Part shown: positions 5,713 through 10,386 of the stretch, in pieces
Layout: the number at the start of each line of letters is the position of its first letter
How positions within the stretch are numbered: position 1 is the first letter of the stretch
Origin: Accumulibacter sp.
GTDB taxonomy: Bacteria; Pseudomonadota; Gammaproteobacteria; Burkholderiales; Rhodocyclaceae
DNA length: 37,548 nt
Direction: 5' to 3'
NCBI GenBank assembly: GCA_016789495.1
Contig: JAEUOJ010000183.1
Span: forward strand, 1 to 37,548
Made by a program: the position numbers and the translations under genes
Notes under the pieces: model-generated
What the model saw: only the letters and a program-made list of their open reading frames with translations
What the model was told of the DNA's origin: nothing
Databases searched by the model: none

Positions 5713-6255
5713 TCAGGCGGGCAGATGCCGAGCGCTGCGCTGGTCGTGACCGGGATGATGTTCGTCGGTCGTGGCCAGGCATGAGCGCAGCCAGGCGTCA
5801 AGACTCAATTTTCCCGGGCCGAGCAGCATCAGCGGCGCCAGCATGCCGAGGAAAATCACCGGCAGTTTGAAGTTGCCCTGGCCGCGGTCGGTCAGTACGT
5901 AGCCTTGGGCGAGTTCGCTCAAGGTCGACCACGACTCGGGCCAGTGAACGCTGGCAATGGCGACGATGGTCAGAACGGACAGGGAGGCGGCGAAGAAGCG
6001 CGTACCCAGGCCAATCACCAGTGCGACGGCGCCGAGCAGTTCGAACCAGGTGGCGATCTGCCAACTCATGTCGACGGGCACGATGTTGAACGGAAAAGGG
6101 AAGCGGTCGGCAACCTCGGCGAACCAGTTCACCCCGTGGAATTTTTCCAGCCCGGACTCGAAGAAGTCCCAGCCGAGCAGCAGGCGCAGGCTCAAAAGGC
6201 CCAGCCAGAGTCCGGCGGCGTCGAACCAGCCGAGTCCATTGTTGATCACTTTCAT
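5713..6255 (-). CDS. hvfX: DoxX-like membrane protein of bufferin operon (HvfX type)
   Basis: A 180-residue protein of the DoxX superfamily with four hydrophobic segments: about residues 13-30, 65-85, 88-105 and 130-150. It has the family text RLLLGWDFFESGLEKFHG and a WQIATWFELLGAVALVIGLGTR helix pair. The C-terminal tail is polar and has several His residues (TDEHHPGHDQRSARH). DoxX-like proteins accompany many MNIO/bufferin operons (HvfX in Haemophilus naming), where a role in maturation or metal handling at the membrane is proposed. Its start overlaps the end of hvfC (ATGA), so it is the last gene of the leftward operon. Naming rests on context plus the fold. Confidence 0.85.
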   Translation of the reverse strand: MKVINNGLGWFDAAGLWLGLLSLRLLLGWDFFESGLEKFHGVNWFAEVADRFPFPFNIVPVDMSWQIATWFELLGAVALVIGLGTRFFAASLSVLTIVAIASVHWPESWSTLSELAQGYVLTDRGQGNFKLPVIFLGMLAPLMLLGPGKLSLDAWLRSCLATTDEHHPGHDQRSARHLPA

Positions 6256-6986
6256 GTTTGTACTCCCAGGATGGCGCCTTGCCGGCGCAGGTCGTCGAGG
6301 ATGGCGCCGCCATGATGGCGTACCGCCACGGCTGACTCTGGCGGCAATTCGCCGGCCAGACGTTCGATCGCGTCGGCGCCGCGGTATTCATGCGTCGCGA
6401 GGAGTTCGACCAGCCGCGCCGTCAGGCCATTGACCTCGGCGAAACGCACGTGGTCGGTCGCATCACGGAAGACCAGCAGCCGGGTCGGTTTCGGCCGGCG
6501 CGGCCGATGGTCGAGGCCGATGCGCTGCACCGGCCAGTCGTAAGCGAGATTCATCAGCGTCGGATTGACCAGTGGCCCGCCGCGCATCAGGTCGCCGCCC
6601 GGGTCGTGCGGCGGAAAAGTCCGGCCACAGGTGTCTACCGCCAGTTCCACCCATTCATAGTGGGCGAACTGGCGGAACCAGGCCGGCAGCGGCTGTCTGC
6701 ATCCGCCGAGGTAACTCAGGAACTCCTGCGGAATCTCGCGGAAGATCGGCGTCGCGCTGCGCCAGTCGCGGAAGAAGGCGCGATTGAGCCGTCGCCAGCG
6801 CGCCTCGCCGAGTAGTTGGCGACAGACCGGAACGCAGGCGTCGAGAAAGCCGGTGATGTTGTTGAACAGCAACTCCTCGTACACCGCCATGCGGCGAGCG
6901 GGCACGCCGGCCGGGCGCGCGGCGCGCGGGTCGCGACAGCGGCGGCCAAAGGCCCGCTGGAACTCTTGGAAAGTGGGCGCGTTCAT
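6252..6986 (-). CDS. hvfC: HvfC/BufC-type RiPP maturation partner (DUF2063)
   Basis: A 244-residue protein. The DUF2063 N-terminal domain is readable: FQEFQRAFGRRCRDP, then RRMAVYEELLFNNITGFLDACVPVCRQLLG, RAFFRDW..TPIFREIPQEFLSYL and FAHYEWVELAVD. The C-terminal half, with NPTLMNLAYDWPVQRI, resembles a small wHTH-like recognition domain. In characterised systems this protein forms a complex with the MNIO enzyme and helps bind the precursor leader. It overlaps both neighbours by four bases (hvfB stop at 6983, hvfX start at 6255), so the three maturation genes are translationally coupled. It shows no sign of decay. Confidence 0.9.
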   Translation of the reverse strand: MNAPTFQEFQRAFGRRCRDPRAARPAGVPARRMAVYEELLFNNITGFLDACVPVCRQLLGEARWRRLNRAFFRDWRSATPIFREIPQEFLSYLGGCRQPLPAWFRQFAHYEWVELAVDTCGRTFPPHDPGGDLMRGGPLVNPTLMNLAYDWPVQRIGLDHRPRRPKPTRLLVFRDATDHVRFAEVNGLTARLVELLATHEYRGADAIERLAGELPPESAVAVRHHGGAILDDLRRQGAILGVQT

Positions 6987-7825
6987 GCGGCCCGCCGCTG
7001 TTTGCGAAATGGCGACTGGATCCGTTCGATGACCTCGACTTCCGTCACCAGCGCCGCCAGATCGGGGATGTTGAAGTCGCGTTCCAGACAGGTCGGCACC
7101 GGGCCGCAGCGGTCGTAGGCCGCTTCGAGCAGCGCCCAGACTGGATCGATCACCTCGGCGCCGTGAGTGTCGATCAATAGGCCGTCGGGCTCGGTGTAAT
7201 GACCGGCGACATGGATGTAGCAGGTGCGTTCCAGCGGCAGCGCGTGCATGAATTCCAGCGCATCGAAGCCGAAATTGCGGCTGTTGACGTAGATGTTGTT
7301 CACGTCCAGATGCAGCAGGCAGTCGGCCTCCGCGATCACCGCGTTGATGAAGCCCGCCTCGCTCAACTCGGCGCCGGGCGGCGCGACATAATAGGAGGCG
7401 TTCTCCAGACCGATGCGCATGCCGAGGATGTCCTGCGCACGGCGGATGCGTTCGGCCGTCCAGCGCACCGCCTCCTCGGTGCAGGGGATCGGCAGCAGAT
7501 CGTAAAGATGGCCGTCATCCGAGCACCACGAGAGGTGTTCGGTGTACAGCGTCATGCCGTGTTCGGCCATAAAGGTCTTGATGTTCTGCAGCAGATTTTC
7601 GTCAAGCGACGAAGGGCCACCCAGCGATAGCGACAGCCCGTGACAGACAAAGGGATAGCGCTCGGTATAACGGCGCAATTGCTTGGCCGAGCGGCCACCG
7701 AGGCCGGCCCAGTTTTCCGGTGCTAGTTCGAAGAAGTCGATGGCATCGGGTACGCCCTCGTCGAGGGCGGAGATCAGTTCGCGCCGAAAGCCGAGACCGG
7801 CGCCTAATGGAAATCCTGGGATCAT
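6983..7825 (-). CDS. hvfB: MNIO family (DUF692) maturase, HvfB/BufB type
   Basis: A 280-residue multinuclear non-heme iron-dependent oxidative enzyme with a TIM-barrel fold. Family segments occur in order: FELAPENW (32-39), CHGLSLSLGG (61-70), YTEHLSW (94-100), GLENASYY (139-146), LDVNNIYVNS (173-182), HVAGH (205-209), DTHG (219-222) and ERDFNIP (248-254). The His, Asp, Glu and Asn residues in these provide the iron ligands. Members of the bufferin branch convert Cys residues of Cys-Gly motifs in a secreted precursor to oxazolone/thioamide or thiooxazole groups that bind copper. The precursor gene lies just upstream behind a hairpin, and hvfC overlaps downstream. The ATG at 7825 has GGAG at a good distance (cttccGGAGtgaacgcATG). 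Confidence 0.93.
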   Translation of the reverse strand: MIPGFPLGAGLGFRRELISALDEGVPDAIDFFELAPENWAGLGGRSAKQLRRYTERYPFVCHGLSLSLGGPSSLDENLLQNIKTFMAEHGMTLYTEHLSWCSDDGHLYDLLPIPCTEEAVRWTAERIRRAQDILGMRIGLENASYYVAPPGAELSEAGFINAVIAEADCLLHLDVNNIYVNSRNFGFDALEFMHALPLERTCYIHVAGHYTEPDGLLIDTHGAEVIDPVWALLEAAYDRCGPVPTCLERDFNIPDLAALVTEVEVIERIQSPFRKQRRAA

Positions 7826-7843
7826 GCGTTCACTCCGGAAGAA

Positions 7844-7868
7844 CCGGGGCGCGCCAATCGCGCCCCGG
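7844..7868 (-). terminator. hairpin between hvfA and hvfB (partial terminator or 3' stabiliser)
   Basis: A perfect 10-bp stem, CCGGGGCGCG / CGCGCCCCGG with a 5-base loop, sits in the 54-base gap between the precursor stop and the maturase start. There is no run of T after it on the minus strand. It therefore more likely protects the precursor mRNA 3' end, or only partly stops RNA polymerase. Either would give more precursor than enzyme. Confidence 0.6.
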
Positions 7869-7879
7869 ATGGGTGGTGA

Positions 7880-8293
7880 CTACTTCTTGTTGGCGCCGCA
7901 ACTGCCATCCTTCATCTTCTTGTCGGCGCCGCAACTGCCATCCTTCATCTTCTTGTCGGCGCCGCAACTGCCATCCTTCATCTTCTTGTCGGCGCCGCAA
8001 CTGCCATCCTTCGCCTTCTTGTCGGCGCCGCAACTGCCATCCCTCGCCTTCTTGTTGGCACCGCAACTGCCATCCTTCGCCTTCTTGTTGGCGCCGCAAC
8101 TGCCATCCTTCATCTTCTTGTCGGCGCCGCACTTGGCTTCGCCGCACTTGCCTTCCTTCTGTTTCATATCCGCCTGCGCCAACTGGTATCCGGCATCGAG
8201 GGCAGCAAGCGTGAAAGGGTTGTTGACGGCCAAGGCGGCGTTGGCAACGAGGGTGGAGCCGATGGCGAGGGCGATACGGGTTTTACGGTTCAT
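7880..8293 (-). CDS. hvfA: bufferin-type RiPP metallophore precursor (HvfA) with Cys repeat array
   Basis: A 137-residue precursor. Residues 1-22 form a Sec signal peptide (MNRKTRIALAIG...NAALA, cleavage likely after ALA). A linker, NNPFTLAALDAGYQLAQAD, matches HvfA-family leaders. The family core motif KEGKCGEAKCGADKK follows, and then seven tandem 11-residue repeats of consensus (M/A)KDGSCGA(D/N)KK run to the C-terminus. Nine Cys are present in the mature part, all as Cys-Gly. ATG 8293 is chosen because AGGAG lies seven bases before it; ATGs further upstream are badly spaced. MNIO enzymes act on EGKCG motifs, so the DGSCG repeats are probably extra modification sites, although that change of sequence is unusual. 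The mature peptide is very hydrophilic and Lys-rich. It is the first gene of the operon, behind a GTAACC/CGAA promoter. Confidence 0.9.
   Translation of the reverse strand: MNRKTRIALAIGSTLVANAALAVNNPFTLAALDAGYQLAQADMKQKEGKCGEAKCGADKKMKDGSCGANKKAKDGSCGANKKARDGSCGADKKAKDGSCGADKKMKDGSCGADKKMKDGSCGADKKMKDGSCGANKK
7883..8113 (-). repeat. seven tandem 33-bp repeats within hvfA
   Basis: Seven in-frame 33-bp units encode (M/A)(K/R)DGSCGA(D/N)KK. They are nearly identical at DNA level: the differences are the first codon (ATG or GCG), one AAG/AGG change and GAC/AAC. Such closeness suggests recent expansion by slippage or unequal crossing over, so copy number may vary between strains. Confidence 0.95.
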
Positions 8294-8347
8294 GGTCATT
8301 CTCCTGGTTTGGTTGAGCATCGATCACACGACCGATGTACCAGCTAG

Positions 8348-8373
8348 TTCGCGACAAACTGGCGCTTGGTTAC
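8348..8373 (-). promoter_or_regulatory. SigF-type ECF promoter of the hvf operon
   Basis: Minus-strand GTAACC (8373-8368), then exactly 16 bases, then CGAA (8351-8348). This is the -35/-10 pattern I recall as reported for Caulobacter SigF (GTAACC-N16-CGAA). A start site about 7 bases further on gives a leader of roughly 45-50 bases to the hvfA ATG at 8293. Confidence 0.75.
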
Positions 8374-8409
8374 AAGCCGGTGCAAACTAGGAAAAATTTC
8401 TGCGACGGT

Positions 8410-8435
8410 GTAACCGGATGCGACCAAGGAACGAA
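8410..8435 (+). promoter_or_regulatory. SigF-type ECF promoter of the sigma/anti-sigma operon
   Basis: Plus-strand GTAACC (8410-8415), 16 bases, CGAA (8432-8435): the same elements and spacing as the opposing promoter. The expected transcription start (about 8441-8444) falls on the GTG/ATG of the sigma gene, which would make a leaderless or nearly leaderless mRNA. It implies autoregulation. Confidence 0.75.
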
Positions 8436-8443
8436 TACAGGTG

Positions 8444-8998
8444 ATGAATGAGAAAAGCGCGACCGAAACGCGCTTACGAGCTCTGTTGTTGTCGGGCATG
8501 GCGGGTGATGGAGCGGCGTATCACGTCTTTCTCAAGGAACTGAGCGCTCACTTTCGGGCTTTTTTCCGGCGGCGCCTGATCCGGCTGCCGGACGATGTGG
8601 AGGATCTTGTGCAGGAAACCCTGTTGGCGGTGCATAACCAGCGCCATACCTTTGAACCGGACCAACCGCTGACGCCCTGGGTGCACGCCATCGCGCGCTA
8701 CAAGCTGGTCGATCTCTGGCGTCGGCGCGCCGATCGTGAGGCGCTGCACGAACCGCTCGACGACCAAATGGAGGTGTTCGCCGCGTCAGACGCCGAAGCG
8801 TCCGATGCGCGCCGCGACGTGATGAATCTGCTGGAACGTCTGCCCGAGCGGCAGCGACTGCCGATCCGTTACATGAAGCTGGAAGGCCTGTCGGTGGTCG
8901 AGACGGCGCGCGCGACAGGCATGAGCGAATCGGCGGTCAAGGTCGGCGTGCACCGCGGCTTGAAGTCGCTGGCGGCAATGATTGGAGGAAACTCGTGA
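8444..8998 (+). CDS. sigF: ECF RNA polymerase sigma factor (SigF-like)
   Basis: A 184-residue sigma-70 family protein of the ECF class. Region 2 is at about residues 25-95 ([30 protein letters not shown], then [18 protein letters not shown]). Region 4 is at about 128-180 ([47 protein letters not shown]), with its helix-turn-helix. The partner gene downstream is an NrsF-type anti-sigma factor, and the genes overlap by four bases, so the two are made together. GTG 8441 is an alternative start; ATG 8444 is preferred. No ribosome-binding site precedes either, which fits a leaderless transcript. Targets are inferred to be its own promoter and the divergent hvf promoter. In Caulobacter the SigF/NrsF pair answers heavy metals and controls bufferin genes. 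Confidence 0.92.
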
Positions 8999-9639
8999 AG
9001 ACCGACGATTTCGTCAACCTGCTGGCGAACGGCATAGAACCCGTGAAGTCAGGCGCGACGGCACGACGTCATGCGCTGGCGCTCGGCTGGGGCGGCCTGG
9101 GCGCAATGCTACTGATGGCAACCCTGCTCGGTGTCCGCGCCGATCTCGCCGCAGCCATGCGGCTGCCCATGTTCTGGGTGAAGCTGCTCTTTCCGATCTG
9201 CATCGCCTTGGCGGCGCTTTTCGCGGCGATGCGCCTGGCGCGGCCAGGCGTGGCCCTCGGTCGCGCGCCGCTGGCATTACTAGTTGCACCGGTCATCGGA
9301 ATATGGGCGATGGCGGCTTATGCCCTGGTCAGCGTCTCGCCCGAACAGCGTTTGACGCTGCTGCTGGGTCGCACCTGGACGGTGTGTCCGCTATTGATCG
9401 TTATGCTATCGCTGCCGACATTCGCCGGCGCGTTCTGGGCGATGAAGGGACTGGCGCCGACCAGGCCGGCATTGGCCGGCGCCGCGGCCGGCCTGCTCGC
9501 CGGCGCCGTGGCGACGGCGGTATATGCGCTGCACTGCCCCGAGATGACGTCGCCCTTCCTGGCGACCTGGTATCTGCTGGGCATGGCACTCCCGACCGCC
9601 GCCGGGGCGCTGCTCGGCACGCGCCTGCTGCGCTGGTAG
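8995..9639 (+). CDS. nrsF: NrsF-type anti-sigma factor (DUF1109)
   Basis: A 214-residue integral membrane protein with about six hydrophobic segments after a short cytoplasmic N-terminus ([17 protein letters not shown]), the usual DUF1109/NrsF layout. Members sequester their partner ECF sigma factor at the membrane and release it on metal stress. Cysteines lie at 69, 131 and 181. C131 (TVCPLL) and C181 (LHCPEM) match the position and context of the conserved pair described for the Caulobacter protein, and would be the metal-sensing residues. The GTG start at 8995 overlaps the sigma stop, and GGAGG lies six bases before it. No gene follows for about 1 kb apart from a decayed IS. Confidence 0.9.
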
Positions 9640-9842: not shown

Positions 9843-10386
9843 ATGCAGCCGAAATCAGGATGCCGGAGCCGTCGCAGGCCCAAGGCGGCGGCTCCGGCAC
9901 GGGTTGCGTTGGCAGAGTTGAGGAAAGATCGCACGCTGGCACCGCTTTGCATGGCCTTTGAATTGCATCCGAACCCGATCGGCGAATGGACGCGGCAACT
10001 ATTGGCACAGGCTGCTGAAGTGTTTGGCGGCATGCCGACCGAACCGCCTGTTGAGCTGGCCCCGTTGCATGGCAAGATCGGTCAATGGGCCCTGGCGAAA
10101 GATTTACTAGACCCCGCGCTCAACACAGAGGGATGGCCGAGCGCAAGGCCATGATTGTCCGGAATCATACCCCCGTCTCGCATCGATACCCGCTGCTTGG
10201 GCTGGCGTGTTCGAGCGTGTATACACGCCACGAGGTCTCGCCGGAGGACCGGGCCCTGGGGCGTCGGATAGACGAGTTGCACGTCGATGCCGATGCACGC
10301 CTGTTGCACGATCTGGCGATCGAACGGCCCAAGCCGTGGGCGCGCGGACATCACCGGCCTGCCAATGCGCCGGGGCTTCCTTGACG
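9843..10386 (+). mobile_element. IS3-family element remnant (orfA and orfB fragments)
   Basis: An orfA-like piece at about 9880-10122 reads ARVALAELRKDRTLAPLCMAFELHPNPIGEWTRQLL and later ELAPLHGKIGQWALAKDLL, the IS3 HTH and leucine-zipper text. An orfB-like piece from 10133 in the -1 frame reads MAERKAMIVRNHTPVSHRYPLLGLACSSVYT, then RRIDELHVDADARLLHDL. Another frame then gives VGRADITGLPMRRGF, like the VGRRHVTTLMRRMGI segment. The DDE domain is missing and there are at least two frame shifts, so it is dead. I could not find terminal inverted repeats. The flanks 9640-9842 and 10387-10684 hold no recognisable gene. Confidence 0.7.

Follow-up and report, generated by a model that had tools for sequence, protein, structure and literature searches.

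The DNA analysed here, referred to as the window, is a 37,548-nucleotide stretch from Accumulibacter sp. It contains a four-gene operon, hvfA-hvfB-hvfC-hvfX, in which hvfA encodes a precursor polypeptide, and a sigF-nrsF gene pair that lies upstream of hvfA in divergent orientation and was absent from the sequence-only reading that this analysis followed up. The features, in positions of the window, are the following:

5713..6255, minus strand: hvfX, DoxX-family membrane protein (NF050144, 139 bits against a cut-off of 80; PF07681)
6252..6986, minus strand: hvfC, DUF2063 partner of the PME1 type (NF050145, 251 bits against 142; PF09836 and PF22106)
6983..7825, minus strand: hvfB, MNIO maturase, DUF692 (NF003818, 403.7 bits against 360; PF05114, 334 bits)
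7844..7868, minus strand: perfect 10-bp hairpin in the hvfA-hvfB gap (folding of the stretch 7820-7885)
7880..8293, minus strand: hvfA, precursor of 137 aa with 9 Cys (NF050137; AGGAG located 7 bases 5' of the ATG at 8293)
7883..8113, minus strand: seven tandem 11-residue DGSCG units with 7 Cys (Tandem Repeats Finder and unit comparison)
8126..8155, minus strand: canonical core EGKCGEAKCG with 2 Cys (translation, NF050137)
8168..8227, minus strand: conserved leader-like stretch NPFxLxxLxxGYQLAQAD (alignment of precursors)
8228..8293, minus strand: putative Sec signal peptide, residues 1-22 (by inspection: basic N-terminus, hydrophobic stretch, ALA ahead of V23)
8348..8373, minus strand: predicted SigF promoter facing hvfA, GTAACC-N16-CGAA (perfect match to the Caulobacter SigF motif)
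8410..8435, plus strand: predicted SigF promoter facing sigF, GTAACC-N16-CGAA (perfect match to the same motif)
8441..8998, plus strand: sigF-type ECF sigma factor gene (NF009188, 293 bits against 250; Sigma70_r2 and r4)
8995..9639, plus strand: nrsF, anti-sigma factor gene (PF06532, 235 bits against 26.8; NF042994, 163 bits, below the equivalog cut-off of 300)

The hvfA product scores 44.7 bits against the HvfA-family model NF050137 (KCGExKCG_twice; cut-off 19.5). In its leader-like stretch, P, F, L, G and Y are invariant among 38 aligned precursors, and we infer a recognition role for this region. Two of the nine Cys-Gly sites are KCG (one EGKCG and one EAKCG), and the other seven are DGSCG. 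The array occupies residues 61-137 and consists of MKDGSCGANKK, AKDGSCGANKK, ARDGSCGADKK, AKDGSCGADKK, two copies of MKDGSCGADKK, and MKDGSCGANKK; its Cys residues are spaced 11 residues apart, compared with 5 in the tested substrates of FonBC. Tandem Repeats Finder detects a 33-bp period with 7.5 copies, 94% matches and a score of 421 at 7883-8131, which is far more than chance. Compared pairwise, the array units show 0-4 differences in 33 bases, unit 1 being identical to unit 7 and unit 5 to unit 6; the preceding EAKCG-bearing unit differs from them at 9-12 of 33 bases. The near identity of the units in DNA points to a probably recent local expansion and, because variation is synonymous at one position (GGC/GGT, in unit 2), the array looks young.

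The sequence-only reading had described a precursor of this composition next to a full MNIO maturase operon. Both parts hold up: the 137-aa ORF has a signal peptide-like start, the EGKCGEAKCG core, seven 11-residue units and nine Cys, with the correction that the third unit begins with AR instead of the (M/A)K given for all units; hvfB, hvfC and hvfX each score above the NCBIfam cut-off, and the genes overlap by 4 bp at both the hvfB/hvfC and the hvfC/hvfX junctions. By sequence, the closest solved structure to HvfB is 3BWW, and HvfC is related to 3DEE.

AlphaFold2 modeling of the hvfA product with 38 sequences yielded no fold (mean pLDDT 44.7, with residues 44-136 below 50); the model and the corresponding alignment row were built from 7880-8290, that is, without Met1. 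A beta-helix is thus neither shown nor excluded, and we make no claim of such a fold. On the opposite strand of the array, long open frames are present at 7683-8390 (plus) and 7720-8214 (plus), most likely as a by-product of the 33-bp repeat.

The stretch 7820-7885, which includes the hairpin between hvfA and hvfB, has a predicted folding energy of -28.2 kcal/mol (z -2.44; 3 of 200 shuffles equally stable). The hairpin is perhaps a processing or attenuation element that sets precursor expression above that of the maturase. In L017, the nearest named locus (Rhodocyclaceae MAG fen_999), the gap between precursor and maturase likewise contains a hairpin at this position, with another sequence. 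As a general feature of such operons, a hairpin following the precursor is weak, with z below -2 in 16 of 59 precursor-maturase gaps (60 shuffles each).

HvfB carries the residues of the Lys-Cys group of MNIOs, R14, R15, D250 and F251, which would correspond to R15, R16, D249 and F250 of FonB; these positions were located through the FRRE and ERDF motifs and 83 aligned relatives, with FonB outside the alignment. Among the 83 relatives (L039 and L098 being one record), these residues are nearly invariant: R14 is R in 80 and K in 3, R15 is R in 83, D250 is D in 83, and F251 is F in 82 and Y in 1. An HvfB-type MNIO adjacent to a DUF2063 partner, as in the Lys-Cys group, is also present (NF003818 and NF050145 above cut-off). 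Judged by these models and residues, hvfA is a precursor of the HvfA / Buf_EGKCG / captophorin family. Identity with bufferin 1 or bufferin 2 was considered and rejected: the hvfA product has no Pfam or BufA2 match at E 0.001, and the BufB model gives 252 bits, below its cut-off of 310. A bufferin-2 type system is encoded on another contig of the same genome (G000:C71, L009:7616-9695, minus strand) and comprises a BufA2 precursor, a BufB-type MNIO and a DUF2063 partner. The MNIO of that system has S at the position of R15 and D at the position of F251; for Cys-Lys MNIOs, the available text of the FonBC study reports loss of the second Arg and a Phe-to-Asp replacement (PMC12668002).

The 147-bp gap between hvfA and sigF (8294-8440) contains two perfect SigF-type sites, one facing each gene, and both are also found in L017. 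In the window, GTAACC-N16-CGAA has 2 matches against 0.04 expected, and two matches were obtained in 0 of 100 shuffles. Genome-wide, the pattern is not enriched (6 matches, four of them outside this spot, against 7 for the reversed control), so that only its clustering at this spot is informative, and prediction of a genome-wide SigF regulon from the pattern was discarded as unusable. A homologue of the sigma gene (34-83% identical) lies divergently beside the precursor gene in at least 13 of 80 HvfB loci, a lower bound because several loci are on short contigs. GTAAC-N17-CGAA occurs nearby in all 13 of these loci, which hold 15 of the 23 matches found in 879,513 bases. A tblastn search with NrsF of the window found it in 1 of the 80 loci (L017); in the three loci examined with Pfam (L017, L019 and L041), an NrsF gene follows the sigma gene in each case. 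The window thus combines an ECF sigma factor, NrsF and the promoters of a SigF-NrsF regulon, with NrsF falling short of the strict NCBIfam cut-off, and SigF control of the hvfA operon is predicted. In Caulobacter, SigF is reported to control two DUF2282-DUF692-DUF2063 operons, one of which includes DoxX, through the motif GTAACC-N16-CGAA (PMC3511200). The available text of Antoine et al. places sigma and NrsF genes in Buf1 and not in Buf2 clusters, and characterises EGKCG clusters chiefly through the core genes (PMC12452194). Downstream of nrsF, at 9843-10384, there are short ORFs that, by eye, resemble decayed transposase pieces; two of these were tested and had no Pfam match.

Among 28 genomes of the genus, some of them incomplete, 3 encode an HvfB above the family cut-off, that of the window being one. 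In the HvfB tree (58 of 85 aligned rows), the window groups as sister to L017 (support 99/94) rather than with either of the remaining Accumulibacter copies; the outgroup branch is very long, so that the root carries no meaning. This placement, together with the shared sigF-nrsF layout, suggests that the hvf module was acquired or retained independently of the other copies of the genus. The presence of HvfB in so few genomes and the pairing of the window with L017 give no support to vertical descent within Accumulibacter.

To place the array among its relatives, two sets of precursors were compared. The first consists of the best 120 of 1552 and the best 120 of 256 proteins, 211 distinct ones in total, from searches in which candidate length was 0.55-1.75 times that of the query and the query favours Ser. 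Among the matches listed, 90 of the 211 homologues contain at least one DGSCG, and the longest DGSCG run elsewhere is five (P0173), followed by four in three proteins, compared with seven here; as these figures rest on the best-scoring part of each search, longer arrays may exist. The second set was obtained through HvfB: 80 loci yielded 73 precursors, after exclusion of 7 loci with no ORF bearing at least three motifs. In these HvfB-linked precursors, DGSCG is present in 12 of 73, SCG in 21 and a non-Lys site in 31, with DGSCG runs no longer than two; the Cys count is most often six (31/73) and ranges from 3 to 12. At the 436 sites of this set, position 3 is K in 366, S in 41, N in 12, A in 8, M in 3, G in 2, Q in 2, T in 1 and R in 1, and the residue after Cys is Gly at 434; because a minimum of three matches to [DEQ][GAS]xC[GA] was required in selecting the ORFs, such counts are fair for position 3 and biased for positions 1, 2 and 5. 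Among the matches listed, the 1654 sites of the two partly overlapping sets include no Glu or Pro and a single Phe at position 3, and no Arg or Pro at position 1; 30 sites of the 211-protein set, again among the matches listed, have neither Gly nor Ala after Cys.

Tandem EGSCG units were observed in P0180, P0189 (Lysobacter) and P0195, so that arrays of the Ser type may have had several origins. In P0164 and P0180, the Cys-Gly arrays are joined to domains with Pfam accessions that we take to be those of EF-hand; P0195 resembles these two proteins by eye, without a Pfam entry. The string DGSCG appears in none of the MNIO papers listed by a literature search, and a count over the main texts of two MNIO surveys gave 0; supplementary tables may nonetheless list such motifs.

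The array had been proposed to be an amplified substrate with up to nine modified sites, a view that is supported. The further proposals that the E-to-D and K-to-S changes signify a different modification, metal or register, and that the system is an undescribed variant, are not supported: DGSCG is common in relatives, the specificity residues of HvfB are unchanged, FonBC accepts DGKCG and position-3 variants, and all four genes of the operon score above the cut-offs of their family models. The search that had been suggested, for precursors with DGSCG arrays beside DUF692 genes, did recover the motif next to HvfB, but in runs of two at most, and although many relatives share DGSCG, the seven-copy array itself is the longest among the matches listed. 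By these comparisons, DGSCG is not new and the long tandem array of seven is the unusual part; hvfA belongs to a known family, of which it is an unusually long member, and does not represent a new system.

We consider it likely that hvfA encodes an HvfA-family (captophorin) precursor in which all nine Cys-Gly sites, the DGSCG units included, are converted to 5-thiooxazoles by HvfB-HvfC for copper binding in the periplasm, under predicted SigF-NrsF control. By analogy with Caulobacter, heavy-metal or redox stress would free SigF from NrsF, and SigF would then drive transcription of both hvfA-hvfB-hvfC-hvfX and sigF-nrsF, each from the matching site that faces it. As family chemistry suggests, HvfB, with the leader presented by HvfC, would oxidise every Cys with the loss of 4 H; Sec would then export the modified polypeptide, which would buffer Cu(I). 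Recent duplication of the unit would probably have brought the number of sites to nine per molecule, compared with the six commonest in relatives, presumably with a gain in capacity. Cu(I) binding has been reported for relatives of the hvfA product (PMC12668002), and copper is, by analogy, the likely metal here; the available text of a Microbulbifer study is hesitant on a protective role (PMC12538549).

The benefit of the array is open to a different reading, which we regard as possible although doubtful: the 33-bp unit was duplicated recently by slippage, selection has yet to test the product, and capacity was not gained. The 0-4 differences per 33 bases with two identical pairs of units and the widely varying copy number among relatives (from 3 to 12 Cys across the 73 loci) are consistent with such neutrality, whereas the intact frame, Cys-Gly and KK linkers in 7 of 7 units and the tandem SCG arrays of other relatives (P0180, P0189 and P0195) argue against it. 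This alternative concerns benefit only and is compatible with the chemistry of the thiooxazole reading.

A rival reading of the chemistry is modification of EGKCG and EAKCG alone, with the DGSCG tail contributing seven free thiols, metallothionein-like or redox, to a two-site captophorin. Data on FonBC in the available text of one study (PMC12668002) bear on this possibility. A single-repeat substrate is reported to be left unmodified, turnover requiring two repeats, and AKCGA, GKCGT and NVCGG to be modified only once; in double variants, only Ala was accepted in place of the Gly after Cys, though LVHCY was modified once. The array has neither Lys at position 3 nor the 5-residue spacing, and, since FonBC left a single repeat unmodified and the Cys of the array are 11 rather than 5 residues apart, the isolated sites could be poor substrates. 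However, the modified sites reported for characterised precursors number seven in FonA, six in HvfA and apparently six in MmrA, position-3 variants occur among KCG sites in many relatives, and the enzyme residues of HvfB are unchanged, so that we hold the two-site reading to be improbable.

Substrate tolerance also bears on whether DGSCG marks new chemistry, which it probably does not. FonBC is reported to tolerate A, R and T at position 3, with F and E causing severe impairment, and to modify DGKCG fully, Arg at position 1 failing (PMC12668002). In HvfB, no position switches cleanly with non-Lys-rich substrates when 16 rows in which half or more of the sites are non-Lys are compared with 44 rows with none; the largest shift, at residue 224 (most often E, in 10 of 16 non-Lys-rich rows, versus D, in 22 of 44), is uncorrected for ancestry. 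A different modification, metal or register directed by DGSCG is very hard to credit and was not retained as the leading reading. Two of the five positions of the motif are changed, it is repeated exactly, and it is absent from the MNIO papers listed by literature search and from the main texts of two MNIO surveys, but DGSCG and other non-Lys sites are common, share precursors with KCG sites, accompany MNIOs whose specificity residues are unchanged and show no clean enzyme switch, and FonBC fully modifies DGKCG and tolerates A, T and R at position 3.

It is now established that captophorin MNIOs produce thiooxazoles that bind copper, and the hvfA precursor offers a natural substrate for a specificity test, with two Lys-type and seven near-identical Ser-type sites in one chain next to an enzyme with unchanged specificity residues. 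The SigF-NrsF switch, described for bufferin operons, here adjoins an EGKCG-type precursor. Should every site be modified, varying the number of copies would offer a simple means of tuning copper capacity. A more elaborate proposal, to which we assign little likelihood, is that of a Ser-type captophorin: Lys would have been removed from the ring-forming position in the 11-residue DGSCG units, a single MNIO would produce two Lys-type and seven Ser-type thiooxazole sites, and the latter would differ in copper affinity, resulting in a high-capacity copper polymer with its length tuned by unit duplication under SigF control.

Comparison with known systems, as described in the available texts, places the locus as follows. 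The HvfA/oxazolin system of Haemophilus influenzae (hvfABCX) has the same four-gene operon and family models, and a precursor with a signal peptide and repeated Cys-Gly motifs, but H. influenzae HvfA contains three AEGKCGEGKCG motifs with six Cys, whereas the precursor described here has one such pair followed by seven single DGSCG units, and its operon is accompanied by divergent sigF-nrsF (PMC13419390). Fontiphorin (FonA; captophorin class) likewise has a repeated five-residue Cys motif, an MNIO with the RR and DF residues and a DUF2063 partner; it has seven sites and is described by EGKCG repeats, compared with nine sites, seven of them with Ser before Cys, in hvfA. In Buf_EGKCG/oxazolin type 1 (Antoine et al. 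2025), the number of repeats varies as well, with proteins of 31 to 506 aa and up to 58 Cys; there, however, the repeats are 17 residues long with two EGKCG each, rather than 11 residues with one DGSCG, and a mid-size member is modeled as a beta-helix, whereas AlphaFold gave no fold for hvfA (PMC12452194). The Caulobacter SigF regulon (CC3252-CC3257 and CC2905-CC2907) similarly ties SigF-NrsF to MNIO-DUF2063(-DoxX) operons via GTAACC-N16-CGAA, but its precursors are of the DUF2282 (bufferin 1) type, not the EGKCG type (PMC3511200). The nearest named locus is L017, with 81% identity in HvfB, 83% in SigF and 77% in NrsF, the same divergent layout and both promoter sites; its precursor differs in having six Cys, preceded by K, K, K, S, N and S, and two DGSCG.
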